50,917 nt of DNA from SAR324 cluster bacterium (GCA_029245725.1 JAQWOT010000148.1:1-50917), one strand, 5' to 3'; positions 1,047 to 44,215 are shown, counted from the first letter of the stretch. The notes: generated by a model from the letters alone, not told the origin. A program made the numbers and translations.

Positions 1047-1574
1047 AGAGAATTTAAAATTCGAACCTACAGCAGTTAATTTTTACTAGAAGAATGCCTG
1101 ATGAGGAGAGCGCGAAGAAAGGAGAGAAGAAATCGTTGGCAAAGGACAAAAAAAAATGTGCTACAGTTAAATCAGCAGATATTCCGTCAGGATGTCTTGT
1201 TGTGTTGGGCCCCTGTATCCGTTGCCAAACCATCCGGATGCCGGGGCTTTTGCATTTGTATGTACGCAAAGTTGGATCGAGTTTTTACCAGTTTTTTATA
1301 TTTATAGTTCTACCTCTTCTGAGTGTCAATTATTTTTCAGACAACCCTAAAAAGAATAATTATTGAAATTCAATAATATATAAAATATTTTTTCAATCAG
1401 AAAGTCTGATTTAATCAATTTTTGTCATAATTTTTAAACAAAAATCGGACATAAAAGCAGTATTAAAAGAAAATTACAATTTAATCACTCATTTTAAAGC
1501 TGAGTTCCTAAAATTTCTTGTCACGTTTATGCGATAATTTTGGAGAATGAAAAATAAACGAGAAGAAAAAACAC
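1047..1574. other. AT-rich intergenic stretch, no gene supported
   Basis: Only short overlapping frames on both strands with no recognisable motif. A small perfect palindrome CATCCGGATG lies near 1232-1241. From about 1310 the sequence becomes very AT-rich, which could provide promoter-like DNA for the PAS stub that follows, but I cannot pick out a specific -35/-10 pair. Confidence 0.4.
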
Positions 1575-1760
1575 ATGAATCACATCAAGAGAATTCCAGA
1601 TTATACCAATCTCCTGGAAGAGCTAAGCTCCACGGAAACCTGGTATCTTGATCTAACTACCATGAAATTCCTAGAGGTGAGTGAGAAGACCTACGATATT
1701 TATGGAGTCGGTAAGGAAGCTCCGCCCAGCTACGAGGACTTTTTATTCAATTGTGGATAG
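1575..1760 (+). pseudogene. Truncated PAS-domain fragment
   Basis: A 61-residue frame starts at ATG 1575. Residues about 15-57 read LSSTETWYLDLTTMKFLEVS and then EKTYDIYGVGKE...SYEDFL. This is the N-terminal half of a PAS_3-like fold: the W-x-x-D-L-x-T strand, the S-x-x-x-x-x-I-Y-G turn and the start of the F-x-x-x-I-H-P-x-D helix. The frame stops exactly where IHPxD would be expected, and no kinase, GGDEF or other output domain follows. I read it as the leftover 5' end of a sensor gene. A genuine short PAS protein is less likely because the domain itself is incomplete. Confidence 0.5.
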
Positions 1761-1806
1761 AACCTCATCACTTTCAACAACCTGTCACTGAAACTCTCAA
1801 TCATAG

Positions 1807-2082
1807 GATCAGGCCCGCCTGTCAGTCAATTTCCCTGACACAATTCTGTGGGATGCAGTAAACTTAAATTTTGCAAACTTGGATATTTGGAGTCATGGAG
1901 ACCAAAGATCGACGCCACCATCTCGCAAAGGCACACTTCGCCTCCTGCGGTCACGTTGGCTCGGTCGGTTTCAGGTGTTTTACGACAAGGAAACCCAAAG
2001 ATCGACATGGCTACCTCTCAATGTTCTCACACTTTCTTGGGCAACAGTATTTTTCAGTCGGCAGATTGCTCAACTAAAATAG
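1807..2082 (+). pseudogene. Unrecognised coding remnant
   Basis: The frame is open from just after a TAG at 1804 to the TAG at 2080-2082 (about 91 codons). Its composition looks protein-like: SVNFPDTILWDAVNLNFANL, then a basic stretch, then WLGRFQVFYDKETQRSTWLP. It has no ATG; the only start candidate is a TTG at 1879. I do not recognise the family. It may be the C-terminal fragment of a lost gene. It sits where a thiQ might be expected downstream of thiP, but it runs on the opposite strand and shows no ATPase motif. The near-repeat CCAAAGATCGAC occurs twice in it. Confidence 0.25.
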
Positions 2083-2111
2083 TGACTTTTTTTAGTTATT
2101 TTCCAAAAAGA

Positions 2112-3776
2112 TTACTCTCTCAGCAGAGCAGTTCGTTCGACCAGCAAAAACAAGCCTACCGACATCGCCAGCAGAATAACTCCAACCGCAGAGGCCTGAT
2201 GGAAACGATAACCAGACAAAGCCGAATAGATCTCCAAGGGTAGCGTTCGTACTGTTTCATCAGCGATCATCAGGATGGAATTGAGTTCTCCCAAGGAGAG
2301 CGCAAAGGCAAACCCAAAGGCCAGCAGCAAGGTCGGTCGCAGCCAGGGCCAGAGGACAATCCTCCAGAAACGCAGACGTGGGATGCAAAGTATCTTCGAT
2401 TCAGTGTGCCACTGAGCGGGAATTGCCCTCCAAGTTGGTAGCACCAAGCGGAGCCAGTAAGGGCATCCCAGGATCGCATGCAAGGCAGCAGCAATCCAAA
2501 AAAGAGAGACACTCCCCGCAAGCCATGACTGGTTTAGATGAAACCAGGCCACCCCAAAGACCACCGTGGAAAAAGCCATCGGCAAGAGAATCAGCCCTTC
2601 CAATCCCGCTCTCAAGCGTAGCGGTACACGTTCCAACCAAATCAGCAGCCCAGCACCAAGGAGCGAAGCGAGCAGTGCGCTCGTCAACCCAATCCGAAAT
2701 GAATTCCACAAGGCGGAAAAGAAACGATTGTTCTCCCTCTCAGCAAAGAGAACTTGATAAGCATCCCAGGTAAAAGCATCTGCTTGTCTTAGGGAATCAA
2801 ACACGATGGCCAAAAGAGGACCAACCCCAAAAGTCAGTGCAGCTACCAACCAAGCCAAGCCCAGCCAGGCTTCGGGTCGTCTCAGTCGAAGTTGATCAGG
2901 AAGCCAGAGTCGGGGTAGTGACTGCTGTCGTATTGGACGCTGTTTGCGATGCTGCTTGAGCAGGAGCAACAAGGTGAAGATTGCCAGTCCAGACTGCAAG
3001 AGTGACAACACTGCAGCTCCTGAAAAATCCAAATCAATCCGTGCCAGTTGATAAATCAATACCTCGATCGTCGTGTGGCGGACACCTCCTCCCAACACTA
3101 GGATGATGGCAAAGCTGTTCAAGCAGAGTAAGAAGATCAGGGTGAAGGCTCCCAAAATCGAAGGAAGAATCAACGGCAGCGTCACAAGCAAGAAGTTGTA
3201 TAAGGGGGAATGACCAAGCATTCGTGCTGCCAGCGAATACTTTGCAGAGATTCTCTCCCATTGATCCCCAATCAGCCGCATCGCCAGTGGGAAGTTGTAA
3301 AAGACATGGCCCAGCAGGATCCCATTGAGTGAATAGAGGAATTGAACTGGAGGTTCTTTGAGCCCGAAGAGGGACATCAGCGCTTGGTTGACCCAACCCT
3401 GATTCCCAAAAAACAGGACCATCGCCAGCACTACTAAGATGGAGGGCAACAGGAATGGCAGGTAAGCAAAACGTTGCAGGGCCGCTCGTCCCGGGAAGTC
3501 ATAGCGAGTCAGCAGCCAAGCCCCGGGAAGGCCCAGCAGGATGGAAAGAACAGCACTCCAGAACGCCTGCTCCAAAGAGAATCCAAGAACTCGTAGGTTC
3601 CAGGGATCAGCTAAGAACTCCAACAGGTAGTCCAAGCGCAGAACCGAGACCCCGGGTTGGAGAGGGTCCTGACCACCCAGAAACAACAGCAGCGGCAAGT
3701 AAAATCCACCTACCAGCAACAGCATAGCCAGGATCTGCAAGAAGCCAGGAAGCAAACGCTCCAGGAGTTGGCTCAT
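2112..3776 (-). CDS. thiP: Thiamine ABC transporter permease ThiP
   Basis: A 554-residue membrane protein made of two fused binding-protein-dependent permease units, the arrangement of ThiP and FbpB-type permeases (E. coli ThiP is about 536 aa). Each half has about six hydrophobic segments and an EAA-type loop that would contact the ATPase. In the first half this is the LAARMLGHSPLYNF region (about 180-195); in the second it is the ESKILCIPRLRFWRI region (about 455-470). It begins 4 bp after the thiB stop, so it is translated from the same TPP-riboswitch-controlled message. No ATPase gene (thiQ) follows. Downstream lie only debris and a decayed second copy of this gene's 3' end. It would form the inner-membrane channel for thiamine or TPP uptake. 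Confidence 0.92.
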   Translation of the reverse strand: MSQLLERLLPGFLQILAMLLLVGGFYLPLLLFLGGQDPLQPGVSVLRLDYLLEFLADPWNLRVLGFSLEQAFWSAVLSILLGLPGAWLLTRYDFPGRAALQRFAYLPFLLPSILVVLAMVLFFGNQGWVNQALMSLFGLKEPPVQFLYSLNGILLGHVFYNFPLAMRLIGDQWERISAKYSLAARMLGHSPLYNFLLVTLPLILPSILGAFTLIFLLCLNSFAIILVLGGGVRHTTIEVLIYQLARIDLDFSGAAVLSLLQSGLAIFTLLLLLKQHRKQRPIRQQSLPRLWLPDQLRLRRPEAWLGLAWLVAALTFGVGPLLAIVFDSLRQADAFTWDAYQVLFAERENNRFFSALWNSFRIGLTSALLASLLGAGLLIWLERVPLRLRAGLEGLILLPMAFSTVVFGVAWFHLNQSWLAGSVSLFWIAAALHAILGCPYWLRLVLPTWRAIPAQWHTESKILCIPRLRFWRIVLWPWLRPTLLLAFGFAFALSLGELNSILMIADETVRTLPLEIYSALSGYRFHQASAVGVILLAMSVGLFLLVERTALLRE

Positions 3777-36870: not shown

Positions 36871-38952
36871 TTAAAAAGAGAATCCGAACAAGGTAAGGTC
36901 ATCTCTTCTTTTGTTATCAGCCTGGTAGTTATTCAGATCTTTCATGATCCATTCAATAGCCTCAGCCACCGAGTTGGAAGACTTGATTTGACGCAGGAGA
37001 CGCTTCTTGCCATACATTAGATTCTTTGCTCCACCGACTTGATCGGTGATTCCATCCGAGAACAGATAGAAGCTCGAATGTTCATCGAGCTTAGTTTCAG
37101 TTACTTTAAATGGGATTGGGTGTTCTTTGGAGTCATAGCCTAAACTGACCTTGTCTCCTTTCATCTCTTTTACCTCTGCCCCCGTTTTCTGATACAGATT
37201 TGATTTGGCTCCTGCAAAGCGTAAGATTCTCTCTTTCTTCGAAAAACAACAAACTCCACAATCCAGCCCAAAATTTGTGCTATCTCCAGCACTTAACTTA
37301 AAGGTTTGGCTCAATAAATCGTCAAGTTGATCTAAAATTCGATCTGGCTGACTGAGATCATGTAGTGAAGCGATACGATCCAAGATTGTACTGGAGATGA
37401 GTGTCATAAAAGCTCCAGGGATTCCGTGTCCTGTACAGTCTGCAACAACCAGTGCTGTCCAGTCTTCCTGCTGTTGGGCCCAATAGAAATCCCCACCTAC
37501 GATGTCCCTGGGCTCCCAGATGTAGATCAGTTCATTGAATCCATAGTGGCTTGGTTCAATTCTGGGTAGAATTGATGATTGGATCACGCTGGCCGATTGA
37601 ATACTGTCTGTAATTAGGTTGTTGGCCTTTTGAAGATCAAGAGTCCTTTCTCTAACTTTATTATCAAGTTCTGTATTCAAGGACTGTAGATTATTCATTG
37701 CATTATCTTTAAACGCTTTTATTCTCTCTTCTAACGCTAAATTAATTGCAATTGGGCATAGTATCAAAAGTATGCCACCTAATGGCAATGCAACAAGATT
37801 AATAATTTCAAGTCCAAAGTAGCCTTTATTTGCCAGATTAATAATTATTGCCATAATCCCAAAGGAAACAACAGGAATCGTAAGCGCAAAAACGATGTAA
37901 CCTGAGGCTTTATCTCCTGATTGCCAAGATTTGAATGAAAGAAATGCGAAATAAAGTAATAAAATAATAGTAGGTACAAACTGTAAAACCATTCGAAAAT
38001 ATCCAATGCCTAATGGTTGAATTGGATACTTTTCAAGGTTAGTAAAATATTCACCATCAGGAAATTCGAATGATCTAATAAAGTAGTAAAAAATAATCAA
38101 TAAATGTAAAATAATTAAGCTATTGATTAATTTACTTATAATTTTGGAATCAAGATTTAAGAAATTTCTGAAAAATTGAATGATTGAAATCAATACACAG
38201 CTAAATATTAGTTGTCCTATGTGGGGATTACCGCGAAAACCAATGGTATAGCCAGATAAATAGATTGCAGAAAATACCAGAGTAAATAGTAAAATTGTCA
38301 ACCATAAATAGTTCGAATCTCTTGTCACAATAAATGATGATATGCTATTTAGAAAAAGATAAATAAGTATTGCATAAAAGAAGATATTTCGCATGATTTG
38401 AAAGAAGGCCTGAGATTGTAGATTTTCCCAGCTATCGATACCAAATGTCACATGCCTGGTTGATAGTGTTCTATGGAGAGGTTTAAACCTATAAAAACTA
38501 TAGATTGTAGTTATTTCATTGATTGGCATCACAATCCGATATCGAAATTGGATTCTATCAATACCAATAAAATTATAGGAATCATCATTAAATTTAATAT
38601 AATCATATTCTTGAATTCCTTTCGAATTAACTGCATATAATTTCTTTTCAAATGTAGTCCAATGACGAACACCAAGATCAGATTCATCAGTTTGATTAAG
38701 AACTGCTAATTTTACCCAGAAACCATTATAATACGAATGTATATTCTCAATTTCACCTTTCCAATTTGCTTTCTTAAGGTCAGATAGACTAGTTGTTTCA
38801 TCCATGCCTTCAAGATACTGAAATTGCTCGATTGGAATCTTTGAATCACCAGTGTAAACGTATGGACTCCCAAGGGCACAAGTACCCGCAATGTACAGGG
38901 AGAATATTGTGATGCTGGTGATTAGGTAAGTAAGAACTGACAGACGAACCAT
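36871..38952 (-). CDS. 7TM-DISM receptor with PP2C/SpoIIE phosphatase output (second copy)
   Basis: 693 aa. A signal peptide is followed by an extracytoplasmic 7TMR-DISMED2-like domain (about 30-175), seven transmembrane segments (about 185-405), a short coiled coil (NNLQSLNTELDNKVRERTLD) and a SpoIIE/PP2C phosphatase (about 465-693). The metal-binding signatures are intact: RDIVGGDFYWAQ, VADCTGHGIPGAFMTLIS, FSDGITDQVGG and terminal RRDDLTLFGF. GGAG lies just upstream of the ATG. It is last in a six-gene minus-strand operon, 36 bp after the metallo-beta-lactamase lipoprotein, and is a paralogue of the first gene. It probably dephosphorylates the SiaC-like protein or a related regulator. Confidence 0.87.
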   Translation of the reverse strand: MVRLSVLTYLITSITIFSLYIAGTCALGSPYVYTGDSKIPIEQFQYLEGMDETTSLSDLKKANWKGEIENIHSYYNGFWVKLAVLNQTDESDLGVRHWTTFEKKLYAVNSKGIQEYDYIKFNDDSYNFIGIDRIQFRYRIVMPINEITTIYSFYRFKPLHRTLSTRHVTFGIDSWENLQSQAFFQIMRNIFFYAILIYLFLNSISSFIVTRDSNYLWLTILLFTLVFSAIYLSGYTIGFRGNPHIGQLIFSCVLISIIQFFRNFLNLDSKIISKLINSLIILHLLIIFYYFIRSFEFPDGEYFTNLEKYPIQPLGIGYFRMVLQFVPTIILLLYFAFLSFKSWQSGDKASGYIVFALTIPVVSFGIMAIIINLANKGYFGLEIINLVALPLGGILLILCPIAINLALEERIKAFKDNAMNNLQSLNTELDNKVRERTLDLQKANNLITDSIQSASVIQSSILPRIEPSHYGFNELIYIWEPRDIVGGDFYWAQQQEDWTALVVADCTGHGIPGAFMTLISSTILDRIASLHDLSQPDRILDQLDDLLSQTFKLSAGDSTNFGLDCGVCCFSKKERILRFAGAKSNLYQKTGAEVKEMKGDKVSLGYDSKEHPIPFKVTETKLDEHSSFYLFSDGITDQVGGAKNLMYGKKRLLRQIKSSNSVAEAIEWIMKDLNNYQADNKRRDDLTLFGFSF

Positions 38953-38988
38953 ATGATCTCCAGTTATCCTATTTTCTAAAATAGAGGA

Positions 38989-40137
38989 TTATTTTTTGAT
39001 CCCTCTGATCAGATTAGACCACCAATCAATAGTCACTGTTTGGTCTTCCAGTGAAATTAATTGACCCAGTTTGGGAGTCATTAATTTCACACCATGTATT
39101 TTAGAAAACTTGACGCTCTCTTGAATCGGGTCATACCAATTGTGGATTGCAAGATTAAACATACCCCAATGAACAGCGACCAAATAGCGTCCCTTGAGAT
39201 CAATCGAAGCCTGCACTGCTTCCTCAGGTAGATTATGCACTTCCCGCCACCGCACGTTGTATTGCCCACTATCAATAAATACCAAATCAATGGGTCCGAA
39301 CTTGTCTCCAATTTGTTTGTAGTGGACGTCGTACCCTGAATCCCCACTGAAGTAAAAGCTGACATCTGCTGACTGAACAACCCAAGAAGACCAAAGTGTT
39401 TGAGATATATTAAAGAGAGCCTGTCTGCCGGAGAAGTGTTGGGCTGGTGTTGCAGTGAAGGTAACCTGATCGAATGATGTGGACTGCCACCAGTCTAATT
39501 CAACCATCTTCTCTTCACTCACCCCCCAGCTTTTCAAATGAGATGTAACCCCTAGTGGTACAATGAATTTTGAAACTTTGTTACTCAAGTACTGAACAGT
39601 ATTCATATCAAGATGGTCATAATGGTCATGGGAGATCAAAACGACATCGATTTTTGGTAACTCATTGAGCTCAAGAACAGGTGGTTGAAATCTAGGTACG
39701 ATGAAATTGACAGGCGAGGCTGAAGGTGAGAAGACGGGATCTACTAAGATGATAGTGTTCTGAATATTTATCAGGAGGGTTGAGTGACCAAACCAAACAA
39801 ATTTTATGCTTCCAGTCGGCTTTAAAAACTCCTTGAGATCAGGAGGCCGTATTTCGGGCAGTACTATCTCAGGAACAGTTTGATTGGGATTAAAAAGCAT
39901 ATTATTGGAAAATCGCTTCATGGGATTCTTCCAGAAGCTATCTCTCTTCCGCATTTCTGCAAAAATATTTTCTCTACGATTTTGGAACCTTTTGTTCTCA
40001 GTGGAATAGTTCGGGGACTTCATGAGTTCGTCCAAGTGGGTTCCACTTGGATTTTCGCCCAATTGAGAGCATCCCGAAAATGAGTGGATCAAGCCAATAA
40101 CCAGAGCACAAACACTGATTTTTCTAATAATTTTCAT
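38989..40137 (-). CDS. Metallo-beta-lactamase-fold lipoprotein (NAPE-PLD/UlaG-like)
   Basis: 382 aa. The signal peptide has lipobox HSFSGC (Cys about 23), so it is probably lipid-anchored in the envelope. The MBL-fold hydrolase of the Beta-lactamase_2/NAPE-PLD type follows. Landmarks are IKFVWFGHSTLLI, the zinc motif ISHDHYDHLD (HxHxDH), AQHFSGR, FYFSGDSGYDVHY and a late AVHWGMFNLA His. Relatives cleave phosphodiester bonds in N-acyl-phosphatidylethanolamine or lactone phosphates. It lies within the cyclase/phosphatase operon (47 bp after the cyclase, 36 bp before the second phosphatase). A signal-modifying or envelope-lipid role is possible but unproven. Confidence 0.82.
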   Translation of the reverse strand: MKIIRKISVCALVIGLIHSFSGCSQLGENPSGTHLDELMKSPNYSTENKRFQNRRENIFAEMRKRDSFWKNPMKRFSNNMLFNPNQTVPEIVLPEIRPPDLKEFLKPTGSIKFVWFGHSTLLINIQNTIILVDPVFSPSASPVNFIVPRFQPPVLELNELPKIDVVLISHDHYDHLDMNTVQYLSNKVSKFIVPLGVTSHLKSWGVSEEKMVELDWWQSTSFDQVTFTATPAQHFSGRQALFNISQTLWSSWVVQSADVSFYFSGDSGYDVHYKQIGDKFGPIDLVFIDSGQYNVRWREVHNLPEEAVQASIDLKGRYLVAVHWGMFNLAIHNWYDPIQESVKFSKIHGVKLMTPKLGQLISLEDQTVTIDWWSNLIRGIKK

Positions 40138-40184: not shown

Positions 40185-41171
40185 CTATTCAAGAAGAGTT
40201 AGTACTTCTTTGATTTTCTTCCTGACGAGAGCCCGATTTTCAATTTTGCTTTGGTCTAGAATTAACGAAAGTCCTGGAATCTGATGTTCAGTCAAACCAA
40301 ACTGATCAGCTTGTTCCATCATGAGTCCCTCGACTTTATAAGTCTGCACAGGGTACGAGACACCTTTGACCTTGATCGTGTTATTCTTTGAGCAGTTGAT
40401 CTCACTTCGCACATGAAGATAGGTGTCTTCGGAAATAAGGATCGAGTTTGGCTTTGCATTGCTTTCCAGCCTAGAAGCCAAGTTTACCCCGTTACCAATC
40501 ACAGTATAATCTAACCTATCTTCGGAACCAAAATTCCCAACGGTACAGATCCCAGTGTGGATCCCCATTCTCGCATTGAGTGGGAGAGCAAGGCCTTTAT
40601 CTTTCCAGATCGCACGAACTTCAGCCAATTGGTCGACCATCTCCATTGCCATCCTGACACAATTGACGGCATCAGCTTTTTCCCCCTTACTGGCTGGGTC
40701 ACCAAAGAAAATCATGATTGCGTCGCCAATATACTTGTCGATTGTTCCTCCCCACCGTAACGCAATTTTAGACATTTCAGTGAGATAGTGGGTAAGCAAC
40801 TCTGTGAGTACTTCGGGTTCCAATCTTTCTGTCAGTTCCGTAAAGCCTTCGAGATCAGAAAAGAAAATTGTCAGGAGTTTTCTTTGAGTCTGAACTTTCA
40901 CATCAAGTTCACCGGTAAACAGAGAGTTGTAAACCTCCGGGGAGAAGTATTTTGAAAGTTTCGTAGAAAAATTGGCTAATTTAGCATTGGCAACACTGAG
41001 TTTTTTTTGACTTTTATCACTCAATCGAATGAGCCGATTTTGCTCCTTATTGAGCTTGATGTACGCCTTGAGTAGTTCTGCATAGTGACGCGCCTCAATT
41101 TCTTCTTCTGAATCAACTCGTTGTTTACCCTGCTCAATAATCGATTCTTCATGAGAAAGTAAATCAGTCAT
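40185..41171 (-). CDS. Class III adenylate/guanylate cyclase, output of a SiaABC-like module
   Basis: 328 aa, soluble. Residues about 25-75 form a coiled coil with the YAELLKAYIKLNKEQNRLIR segment. The cyclase homology domain (about 97-265) is complete: metal ligands D106 (FFSDLEGFT) and D150 (YIGDAIMIFFGDP), base-selecting K146 and T223 (the Lys/Thr pair of class IIIb adenylate cyclases), and transition-state N230 and R234 (GNGVNLASR). ATP is therefore the expected substrate. Its start overlaps the SiaC-like gene by 8 nt, showing tight coupling. In Pseudomonas the gene in this position is the diguanylate cyclase siaD. The natural reading is that unphosphorylated SiaC-like protein binds the coiled coil and activates cAMP synthesis. 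Confidence 0.9.
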   Translation of the reverse strand: MTDLLSHEESIIEQGKQRVDSEEEIEARHYAELLKAYIKLNKEQNRLIRLSDKSQKKLSVANAKLANFSTKLSKYFSPEVYNSLFTGELDVKVQTQRKLLTIFFSDLEGFTELTERLEPEVLTELLTHYLTEMSKIALRWGGTIDKYIGDAIMIFFGDPASKGEKADAVNCVRMAMEMVDQLAEVRAIWKDKGLALPLNARMGIHTGICTVGNFGSEDRLDYTVIGNGVNLASRLESNAKPNSILISEDTYLHVRSEINCSKNNTIKVKGVSYPVQTYKVEGLMMEQADQFGLTEHQIPGLSLILDQSKIENRALVRKKIKEVLTLLE

Positions 41172-41550
41172 CAGAGTAACTCATTAACTTAAAGTTAGCA
41201 TTCTCAATGTCATCTGAAAAATCTTCCCCAAATTCTTCCATAGTGTCATCTTCCTCGTGGTAGTGCCATTCAATATTGATCTCTCTGTTCTCTCCCATTT
41301 CATCGATAAGCTCGAAAAGCTTCATCAGCACTCGAGCACTTGAACTATTGAAATAAGTTAGTTTGAAAACGAATGTTGCAGGTTCTTTAGAATCATTTTG
41401 TGAATATTGTTGGATTGATTCTAAAATTGGCCGATAAAACTCATCTGAGTGCTCTGGGTAGGATTCTCCACCGAATAAGAATGAATGATTACTAAAATCA
41501 AACTTGATTTCGGGTGTTGTCTCAGTAGCTTCAATTTCTAATGTTTCCAT
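41164..41550 (-). CDS. SiaC-like regulatory phosphoprotein (DUF1987)
   Basis: 128 aa, SiaC/DUF1987 family. The N-terminal ATETTPEIKFDFSNHSFLFG and GESYPEHSDEFYRPILESIQ blocks are family signatures. The central strand FKLTYFNSSSARVLMKLFEL contains the phosphorylation site. P. aeruginosa SiaC is, to my knowledge, phosphorylated on a Thr in the NTSS motif; here the equivalent residue is Ser69. The C-terminal NIEWHYHEEDDTMEEFGEDF block is also typical. It sits 9 bp after the SiaB-like kinase and overlaps the cyclase by 8 nt. By analogy it is phosphorylated by the kinase, dephosphorylated by the PP2C receptor, and binds the cyclase when unphosphorylated. Confidence 0.88.
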   Translation of the reverse strand: METLEIEATETTPEIKFDFSNHSFLFGGESYPEHSDEFYRPILESIQQYSQNDSKEPATFVFKLTYFNSSSARVLMKLFELIDEMGENREINIEWHYHEEDDTMEEFGEDFSDDIENANFKLMSYSDD

Positions 41551-41559
41551 TTTCTCTAC

Positions 41560-42111
41560 TCAAATGATAGCGTTGATGCAGAAGAAGGTATAATCAGCAC
41601 TTACTTCTTCAAATGAAAACTCTAATGGATATCCTGCTCTTCTAGCCATTTCTAAAAACCCTAAACTAGCACCTTTACTTCCCTCTTCAGGACCTGCCAT
41701 CATCTGTTTTTTGTATAATTTCTTTAGTTCATCCTTATCTTTACCTTCAATCACTTGTACTCTTTCCCTCATCCTCTCTACATCTTTATTGAAAATTAGA
41801 TTACCGCATTGGACTGTTATTCCATTGTGATGATGCCCGATTGTGATTATACCGTACCGAACCTCATTTTCTAACTCATTAGAATCACCAATTGAATCTG
41901 CAGAATATCTGATTACATTTTGAACTCCTTCAACAAAGATGGAAAACACTTTTTTAGTTTTTCCAAGTTCTGTTTCTTCAGCTTCTAACTTCTTTTTAAT
42001 TGTTTCACCAATAGCTACTAAAATTTTCTGAGTTACATATCCACTGTAACAGAACATGATATCATTTTCTTTTAATGTTTTTTGGAGTTCATAGAACTTA
42101 ATTGAGTCCAT
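41560..42111 (-). CDS. SiaB-like protein kinase
   Basis: 183 aa from ATG 42111, chosen because AGAGGT lies immediately upstream; the longer TTG start would overlap the preceding gene. The protein matches the SiaB/DUF6272 family, a GHKL-like fold distantly related to anti-sigma-factor kinases. Landmarks are IMFCYSGYVTQKILVAIGET, VFSIFVEGVQNVIRYSAD with the conserved Glu-x-x-x-Asn, YGIITIGHHHNGITVQCGN, and GASLGFLEMARRAG. In Pseudomonas SiaB phosphorylates SiaC. It lies 7 bp after the SiaA-like gene and 9 bp before siaC, in the order siaA-siaB-siaC. Confidence 0.85.
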   Translation of the reverse strand: MDSIKFYELQKTLKENDIMFCYSGYVTQKILVAIGETIKKKLEAEETELGKTKKVFSIFVEGVQNVIRYSADSIGDSNELENEVRYGIITIGHHHNGITVQCGNLIFNKDVERMRERVQVIEGKDKDELKKLYKKQMMAGPEEGSKGASLGFLEMARRAGYPLEFSFEEVSADYTFFCINAII

Positions 42112-42118
42112 TTTACCT

Positions 42119-44215
42119 CTATTCAACTGATACAGTTTTCATATTATTATTTATCTGAAATCCAAAAAGTGAAATATCATCCCTCCTTTTATTCGTACCC
42201 TGGTATTGCTCAAAATCCTGAGAGATATTTTGAATAGTCAAATTCAAACTATCAGCCTCATTGATCTTCCGAATAATCCTCTTTTTGCCATACATGATTT
42301 TCTTTGGACCACCAATTTGGTCAGTCAATCCATCTGAAAACATATAAAATGTTGGCTCATCAGTTAAACTTACTTCATGCACATCAAAACTTTGGGGATG
42401 TGGTTTAGTAACATAACCTAAGCTCTTCTTATTGCCTTTTAGCTCAAGTACATTGTTAGCTACTTTGTAGTACAGATTCATCTTAGCTCCAGCAAAGCGG
42501 AGTAAATTCTCCTGATCCGAAAAACAGCAAACTCCCCCATCCAACCCAAATTCAGTTCCTCTGTTCTCATCAAATTTGAGAGTCTCTTCCAATAGAAAAT
42601 CCAATGAATTCAAGATCTGATCTGGTTGGCTGAGATCCACAATCTCTTTAACTCGATTCAGCAGAGTTGTGGATATCAGTGTCATGAATGCCCCGGGTAT
42701 GCCATGACCAGTACAATCTGCCACTACCAAACACGTCCAGTTTTCTTTCTTACCCACCCAATAAAAATCCCCACCCACCACATCTCTAGGCATCCAAATG
42801 TACTTCAACTCATCAAAACCATGCTCTGGATGATCAAACTTTGGTAGAATTGCGTTTTGAATCATACTAGCTGAATCAATACTTTTCGTAATTAATTGAT
42901 TTGCCTCAGTCAGGGCTTTTGTTCTGGACAGTACTTTCTCCTCCAAAAGATCAATCGCACTTTGCTTCATATCATTCAATTTCTGAGCGAGGGCCATTCC
43001 AAGCATGATGAGTATCAGTAAGAATGCGAATACTTGTACTACATCTTTTATGACTTTCAATGTGTAACCTGTCTCAAACAAAAACCACATATCAATAAAT
43101 GCTGTTGGAAATATAACTACAGGCACCAAAAAAGTAAAAAACAGAAACTTTGCGACCTTATCACCCCTCCTCCACAATAAATAGGAAATACAAACAGCTG
43201 ATACTAATATTAAACCTATTGGAATAAGTGCTAAGTTCATTGGAATTGTACCGACACCCCAAGGATGATGTGGGTATTTAATTATATTTTTGTAAAGTTC
43301 AGTGTTTGGGTATTGGAGAGAGTCATAAAAATAGACCAATGCACATAAAATATAAAATTTTGTGATAATATCATAAACATTATAAGTTTTAGGAAATATC
43401 TGTTTAAATGAAAGCAAATTTTGAAAAAATTTTATTAAAACAATTGACATAACACTTAAGCCAATTGCCCCATAAATATAGTTAAGTCTTACACCAAATG
43501 TAGAGCTAAGTATCCAAGTAATGAATGGGTATAGCCCAACCAAAAGTGTTATTGAAATCCAGAGATACGATCTTTCTTTAGAAACCAGAAAATAAAATAA
43601 AAAATATAAGCTAAAACAAATTAGCATTGAGATCATTACGACATATCCCAATAACCTCATGACTTCGTTAAATTCAATATCTTGCCACAATCCAATTGCC
43701 ATCCAGTCCAGACCACCTTCAAAAATTTGATTTCGATCTAACGGCTGACTTCTAAAATAACTGTAGATTTCGACTGGTTCATCTTTTGGCATTATTATTT
43801 TATAATTATACCAAAGGCGATCTTCTGATCTATGTGTATAATTATTATATATTGAACGCACCAAAGGAAAACTATAAATTTTTTCAAAATTTTTATAAAT
43901 GATTCTTTTTTCAAAATTCCACCTGTGAACTAACCCTAAGTTTACCTCATCTAACTTATTTTTGATTTTTAATCGAACCCAGTAACCATCGTAGAATGAT
44001 TGAGGATTATTCATTTTTGATGTCCAGTTAGCTTCTGCTAATTCCTTGTAATTTAATTGGTGACTGACACCTTCTAAAAAAGAATAATATTCCCTAGGTA
44101 CGTTTTTTTGTTCTTCTGATGTGATTAAATAGATTTTTTCTCCATTTTCAAAAGCAACAAGTTGATTCTGGTCAAGAAGCACTATGATAATTGTGAAAAA
44201 AATTATTTTTTTCAT
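42119..44215 (-). CDS. 7TM-DISM receptor with PP2C/SpoIIE phosphatase output (SiaA-like)
   Basis: 698 aa. A signal peptide (about 1-22) is followed by an extracytoplasmic DISMED2-like sensor domain (about 30-180, with SFYDGYWVRLKIKNKLDEVN), seven transmembrane segments (about 190-410), a coiled-coil linker (LLEEKVLSRTKALTEANQLI) and a SpoIIE/PP2C phosphatase. Its metal motifs are RDVVGGDFYW, VADCTGHGIPGAFMTLIS, MFSDGLTDQIGG and RRDDISLFGF. Classical SiaA uses a different membrane sensor with HAMP; here a 7TM-DISM receptor takes its place. It is first in the operon, 7 bp before the SiaB-like kinase, and should reverse that kinase on the SiaC-like protein. Confidence 0.88.
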   Translation of the reverse strand: MKKIIFFTIIIVLLDQNQLVAFENGEKIYLITSEEQKNVPREYYSFLEGVSHQLNYKELAEANWTSKMNNPQSFYDGYWVRLKIKNKLDEVNLGLVHRWNFEKRIIYKNFEKIYSFPLVRSIYNNYTHRSEDRLWYNYKIIMPKDEPVEIYSYFRSQPLDRNQIFEGGLDWMAIGLWQDIEFNEVMRLLGYVVMISMLICFSLYFLFYFLVSKERSYLWISITLLVGLYPFITWILSSTFGVRLNYIYGAIGLSVMSIVLIKFFQNLLSFKQIFPKTYNVYDIITKFYILCALVYFYDSLQYPNTELYKNIIKYPHHPWGVGTIPMNLALIPIGLILVSAVCISYLLWRRGDKVAKFLFFTFLVPVVIFPTAFIDMWFLFETGYTLKVIKDVVQVFAFLLILIMLGMALAQKLNDMKQSAIDLLEEKVLSRTKALTEANQLITKSIDSASMIQNAILPKFDHPEHGFDELKYIWMPRDVVGGDFYWVGKKENWTCLVVADCTGHGIPGAFMTLISTTLLNRVKEIVDLSQPDQILNSLDFLLEETLKFDENRGTEFGLDGGVCCFSDQENLLRFAGAKMNLYYKVANNVLELKGNKKSLGYVTKPHPQSFDVHEVSLTDEPTFYMFSDGLTDQIGGPKKIMYGKKRIIRKINEADSLNLTIQNISQDFEQYQGTNKRRDDISLFGFQINNNMKTVSVE

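Follow-up and report, generated by a model that had tools for sequence, protein, structure and literature searches.

In the SiaABCD system of Pseudomonas aeruginosa, for which the SiaC-SiaD complex has been solved (7e6g; PMC8457831, PMC7647112), SiaC in its unphosphorylated form binds SiaD and stabilises its parallel stalk dimer, phosphorylation by SiaB blocks this binding and SiaA reverses the effect (PMC8457831). The window analysed here, a stretch of 50,917 nucleotides from a SAR324 cluster bacterium, contains at positions 40185-44215 of the minus strand the gene set SiaA-SiaB-SiaC-class III cyclase. This locus raises the question of whether such a switch acts on a class III nucleotide cyclase and, if so, by means of which contact and with which consequence.

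Genes of the locus

All four ORFs lie on the minus strand and were assigned as follows:

42119-44215, minus strand: SiaA-like membrane receptor with a C-terminal SpoIIE/PP2C phosphatase domain (698 aa; Pfam SpoIIE 4e-17; PDB 6k4e 5e-36)
41560-42126, minus strand: SiaB-family protein kinase (188 aa from a TTG; Pfam DUF6272 3e-41; PDB SiaB 6kko_A 4e-19)
41164-41550, minus strand: SiaC-type (DUF1987) switch phosphoprotein (128 aa; Pfam SiaC 3e-40; PDB SiaC 6kko 8e-16)
40185-41171, minus strand: class III nucleotide cyclase with an N-terminal stalk, the output enzyme (328 aa; Pfam Guanylate_cyc 2e-29; CyaB 3r5g 2e-66)

A preliminary description of this DNA had proposed four tightly packed genes, and the ORF check recovered its coordinates, strand, gaps of 7 and 9 bp and overlap of 8 nt. 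The 7-bp gap results from an ATG at 42111, preceded by GAGG, which is likely the true start of the SiaB-like gene; the 9-bp gap separates the SiaB and SiaC genes, and the SiaC and cyclase ORFs share the 8-nt overlap ATGACTGA. The conserved motifs GGDFYW, DCTGHG, SDGLTDQ and RRDD can be read in the SiaA-like protein, whose best PDB match was the phosphatase domain of P. aeruginosa SiaA (6k4e, 5e-36). The SiaB-like protein reached 189 bits with the NCBIfam SiaB-family kinase model (cut-off 85), and the top fold matches of the predicted SiaC structure were SiaC structures. The SiaA-like and SiaC-like proteins remained below the cut-offs of the NCBIfam SiaA and SiaC equivalogs (180 bits for a cut-off of 700, and 84 bits for a cut-off of 150, respectively) and are therefore regarded as homologues, not as equivalogs, of the Pseudomonas proteins. 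A SpoIIE/PP2C phosphatase, a SiaB-family kinase and a SiaC/DUF1987 protein are thus encoded together as a SiaABC module. In the output enzyme Pfam detected Guanylate_cyc only and no GGDEF domain, so that this is not the c-di-GMP pathway of SiaABCD. The gene set is not a product of chance, because unrelated bacteria have it too. Promoter and terminator scans at the operon gave results no better than chance, and membership of an operon is not proof of co-expression.

Two further genes are found downstream of the cyclase:

38989-40137, minus strand: metallo-beta-lactamase-fold hydrolase, directly downstream of the cyclase (Pfam Lactamase_B_2 7e-44; gap of 47 bp)
36871-38952, minus strand: second SiaA-like receptor phosphatase (Pfam SpoIIE 2e-22; NCBIfam SiaA model 189 bits, below the 700-bit cut-off)

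The hydrolase is a possible fifth gene of the operon, and an ORF of the same length follows the cyclase in a relative of the same genus (L197, 2647-3792). The second phosphatase could be an alternative input to the same SiaC; the minus-strand genes at 36871-40137 and the SiaABC-cyclase genes possibly form one extended operon in which a single SiaC has two inputs.

The switch protein and the proposed docking segment of the cyclase stalk

Two short features of these proteins are relevant to the contact between them:

41344-41346, minus strand: Ser69 of SiaC, corresponding to phosphosite T68 in P. aeruginosa (alignment to SiaC; N-terminal end of helix 2 in the model)
40992-41072, minus strand: proposed SiaC dock on the cyclase, residues 34-60, LKAYIKLNKEQNRLIRLSDKSQKKLSV (matrix score, profile search, predicted helix)

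The switch residue is intact: a phosphorylatable Ser is present in an N-[ST]-S context (NSSS at 68-71) at the start of SiaC helix 2. SiaC proteins linked to cyclases retain the acidic and polar residues that contact SiaD. The phosphosite is Ser in all 20 of them and Thr in 17 of the 25 linked to GGDEF proteins, and position 71 is Ala in 20/20 of the former and Ile in 15/25 of the latter. This pattern suggests a tuned specificity, but alternatively it may come from kinship among the cyclase-linked SiaC proteins.

Regarding the cyclase, residues 24-73 were modelled as a single helix, inside which the dock (34-60) falls. In the SiaC-SiaD crystal the contacts of SiaD are R74, K77, V78, R80, I81, S82, D83, R84, Y85, Q86, M88, R90 and D91, and T68 of SiaC hydrogen-bonds S82 and Q86 (PMC8457831). 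The SiaD sequence at this stretch is SERYHKQLRRLEKVARISDRYQQMMRD, and alignment of the cyclase stalk with the segment gripped by SiaC places S51, D52, K53 and Q55 at S82, D83, R84 and Q86 of SiaD, respectively.

An HMM iterated on GGDEF stalks scored weakly, the motif being so short, and an ungapped matrix of 27 residues, trained on SiaC-linked GGDEF stalks only and combined with shuffling, was used in its place. With this matrix the window cyclase scored 13.3 (shuffle p 0.005, which is the limit of the test). The motif was found in 19 of 20 SiaC-linked class III cyclases, with scores of 11-35, and in none of the 77 unlinked ones, whose maximum score was 1.2 (Mann-Whitney p 1.7e-11, a value that ignores relatedness). 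Four cyclases scanned over their full ORFs did not contain a dock either. Among the linked enzymes only that of L172 failed; this cyclase, encoded next to SiaC, is longer and has a Cache-type domain, and the docked protein of its locus is a histidine kinase instead. In addition, none of 3,392 background ORFs exceeded the threshold of 15, and the whole-genome dock profile search retrieved the window cyclase with an E value of 5e-15, its own sequence being among the rows of the profile.

A broader profile of 39 residues was constructed from 26 diverse docks, with Pseudomonas SiaD excluded. In a comparison with the whole PDB, it matched only SiaD significantly, over residues 64-99 of the stalk that binds SiaC (E 1.9e-6; next match 1.1), and no PDB coiled coil was significantly matched. 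A profile made from nine cyclase docks alone failed to retrieve SiaD from the PDB. A short helical motif with many charged residues could in principle be a generic coiled-coil resemblance devoid of function. However, shuffled stalks fall short (p 0.005, the test limit), 0/77 other cyclases and 0/3,392 background ORFs attain the threshold and PDB coiled coils are unmatched, so that this explanation is scarcely credible; it was rejected on the shuffling, the unlinked cyclases and the background ORFs. The output enzyme therefore has the SiaC-binding motif on its stalk, and the proposal that its helical N-terminus is a dock for SiaC is supported, as this helix has the motif seen crystallographically in SiaD, a motif that tracks linkage to SiaC instead of cyclase ancestry.

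Distribution of the dock among cyclases and other proteins

The preliminary description had suspected that similar combinations may already exist and had suggested a survey of DUF1987 neighbourhoods. The suspicion was right: among 76 SiaC loci, 66 have a docked gene within ~4 kb, which encodes a class III cyclase at 20 loci, a GGDEF protein at 32 (some with a further docked gene) and only other proteins at 14. The 20 loci with a docked class III cyclase belong to the class of the window organism, Gammaproteobacteria and Alphaproteobacteria. Class III cyclases linked to SiaC occur in the window organism's own genus and family, with L198 as an example from another part of its class; others come from the order that includes a Porticoccaceae genome (L030, L165-L168), the K189A clade (L039) and the Methyloceanibacter class (L036, L194, L195). 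A second, diverged SiaC-SiaB-cyclase-SpoIIE operon, whose cyclase is also docked, lies on the same contig just outside the window (C148, ~54112-57701; L003, 3213-6802). The distribution of SiaC itself is patchy: it was present in 22 of 295 genomes of the order of the Porticoccaceae genome, in 13 of 337 genomes of the Methyloceanibacter class, 12 of them over the family cut-off, and in only 3 of ~330 genomes of a wide sample outside the class of the window. In Methyloceanibacter superfactus (L036, 6879-9986) the genes of the phosphatase and of SiaC are broken up into several overlapping reading frames, as a consequence of either assembly frameshifts or decay.

Whether the dock follows SiaC or the ancestry of the cyclase was addressed at the level of genomes and of trees. 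Across 98 genomes the broad profile found docks in 17/17 with SiaC and in 1/81 without it (Fisher p 4e-18), a co-occurrence that is partly circular because many rows of the profile came from those genomes; the near absence of the dock in genomes without SiaC is free of that circularity. A whole-genome search of the window assembly yielded two docks only, both on the class III cyclases beside its two SiaC genes. The other seven of its nine class III cyclases are without a dock, and the idea that every cyclase of this genome carries one was rejected. Likewise, no SiaC was found in the genomes of 16 near, unlinked cyclases.

In the tree of catalytic domains, the docked cyclases need at least six state changes, three of which are forced by well supported branches, and a single clade of docked cyclases was rejected (AU p 0.00015). 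The window cyclase groups (99/91) with an enzyme of a Bacteriovoracales bacterium (L027), 68% identical to it, and with two Neomarinimicrobiota enzymes; none of these three has a dock and their genomes are without SiaC. Therefore, the dock either became attached to different cyclase domains on more than one occasion or was lost repeatedly, and in either case these sequence comparisons indicate that it follows SiaC. In the SiaC tree a single clade of cyclase-linked SiaC proteins was not rejected (p 0.36); for this reason several origins are claimed for the joining of dock and cyclase only, repeated loss being also possible.

The dock is not confined to cyclases. The other docked proteins tested by Pfam were histidine kinases (one of them hybrid), HD_5 proteins, one SpoIIE phosphatase and one small coiled-coil protein. 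Because a dock is found in front of the histidine kinase, HD_5 and PP2C domains of proteins encoded next to SiaC (L171, L173, L174, L170, L177, L178, L120, L191, L192, L186, L188), SiaC probably has many kinds of target. Docked proteins were also observed away from SiaC, namely a class III cyclase (L238, 481-1761, minus strand), a histidine kinase (L236) and large hybrid histidine kinases (L229-L231); a Pfam search found no SiaC in the genome of L231.

It is fairly probable that SiaC is a general adaptor and not a dedicated activator of diguanylate cyclases, its short docking helix being a portable address tag, carried by five or more types of signalling protein (diguanylate cyclases, class III cyclases, histidine kinases, HD-domain proteins and PP2C phosphatases), that was gained or lost several times within class III cyclases. 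Single genomes also carry docked enzymes far from SiaC. According to the adaptor reading, a tag of ~30 residues would allow SiaABC to be rewired to a c-di-GMP, cAMP, phosphorelay or further phosphatase output. The existence of docked enzymes away from SiaC (L229, L230, L236, L238) could also mean that the window cyclase is a mere neighbour acting alone, while SiaC targets a diguanylate cyclase encoded elsewhere. This is very improbable, as the only two docks of the assembly sit on class III cyclases beside its two SiaC genes and the linkage of SiaC and cyclase recurs in distant bacteria.

Proposed mechanism and comparison with known systems

The remaining part of the output enzyme is its catalytic domain:

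40317-40898, minus strand: catalytic domain of the cyclase, residues 92-285, with D106, K146, D150, T223, N230 and R234 (Pfam, CyaB 3r5g, alignment, model)

The two metal Asp, the substrate Lys/Thr and the Asn-Arg pair of class III enzymes are all present, and these six residues are invariant in an alignment of 27 relatives, in which the K146/T223 pair pointed out initially proved to be exactly positioned. The closest solved relative is the adenylyl cyclase CyaB (3r5g, 2e-66), with a catalytic domain 56% identical, and the model of the window cyclase, a monomer, matches CyaB with a TM of 0.93 over the target. From the Lys/Thr pair and this identity the product is predicted to be cAMP. Guanylate cyclases exist among class III enzymes and sequence gives no certain specificity; that the dock binds SiaC and the product is cGMP or another cyclic nucleotide is nevertheless improbable, given a K146/T223 pair as in CyaB within a 56% identical catalytic domain.

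Taking these data together, we consider it quite likely that the locus encodes a SiaABC partner switch with a class III adenylate cyclase as output, which SiaC would bind on the stalk at a SiaD-type motif and activate. SiaB would put a phosphate on Ser69 of SiaC, and SiaA, as a membrane sensor phosphatase, would take it off. Unphosphorylated SiaC would then grip the cyclase by its N-terminal stalk helix, at the motif used on SiaD, and stabilise a parallel two-stranded stalk, so that the two catalytic domains could meet as an active homodimer. Phospho-SiaC would release the stalk, and synthesis of the cyclic nucleotide, predicted to be cAMP, would drop. There is one dock per cyclase chain, and a 2:2 complex is therefore predicted. 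What the sequences show directly are the genes, the preserved catalytic and switch residues, and a dock motif linked specifically to SiaC; physical binding and activation as its direction are, as the identity of the product, what we infer within this proposal.

The dock indicates the place of SiaC binding and not its sign, and the distance from the start of the dock to the catalytic domain is longer in cyclases (61-75 residues) than in GGDEF proteins (mostly 37). SiaC could accordingly dock on the stalk and inhibit the cyclase, fixing the stalk in a register in which the catalytic halves stay separated until phosphorylation by SiaB frees the enzyme. This seems unlikely, however, since class III cyclases, like diguanylate cyclases, require dimerisation. 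In the sole measured case, moreover, SiaC activates (PMC8457831). Activation is thus the preferred direction.

As regards possible receivers of cAMP in the genome, a cNMP-binding protein (L211) and a protein with two cNMP-binding domains (L212, L213) were noticed as leads only. The C-terminal half of the former (1360-2796, plus strand) reads as a GGDEF domain, and this protein might possibly link cAMP to c-di-GMP.

The component parts of the system are already known. PP2C/STAS control of c-di-GMP enzymes was proposed in 2022 for Campylobacterota (PMC9239204), and the authors of the SiaC-SiaD structure suggested a role of DUF1987 proteins in modulating adjacent proteins (PMC8457831). Among open-licence papers, none was found that describes SiaC together with a class III cyclase or a shared dock. 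The present proposal joins partner switching to cyclic-nucleotide signalling via a defined short interface and turns the remark on proteins adjacent to DUF1987 (PMC8457831) into a precise rule that can be searched by sequence, names the residues to be mutated and gives predicted targets at most surveyed SiaC loci. The portable dock would also be a natural example of output swapping.

In comparison with SiaABCD of P. aeruginosa, the window locus shares the SiaA, SiaB and SiaC families, the gene order, the dock motif on the output stalk and the place of the phosphosite. It differs in its output, a class III cyclase instead of the GGDEF diguanylate cyclase SiaD; in having one dock per chain, whereas SiaD has two and its crystal contains two SiaD and four SiaC; in the Ser at the phosphosite, which is Thr in P. 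aeruginosa; and in SiaA and SiaC scores below the NCBI equivalog cut-offs. HsbA-HsbD and BgrV-BgrR, in the account given of them in PMC8457831, likewise rely on a phospho-switch protein with a STAS-like fold to control a second-messenger enzyme, but their switch proteins belong to the STAS family and not to DUF1987 and their output is a diguanylate cyclase. Finally, CyaB of P. aeruginosa (3r5g) provides the closest solved catalytic domain, with the same Lys/Thr pair. Unlike the window cyclase, CyaB has neither a dock nor a SiaC operon in the sequences examined, the solved construct being the catalytic domain only, and it is a membrane-bound enzyme.
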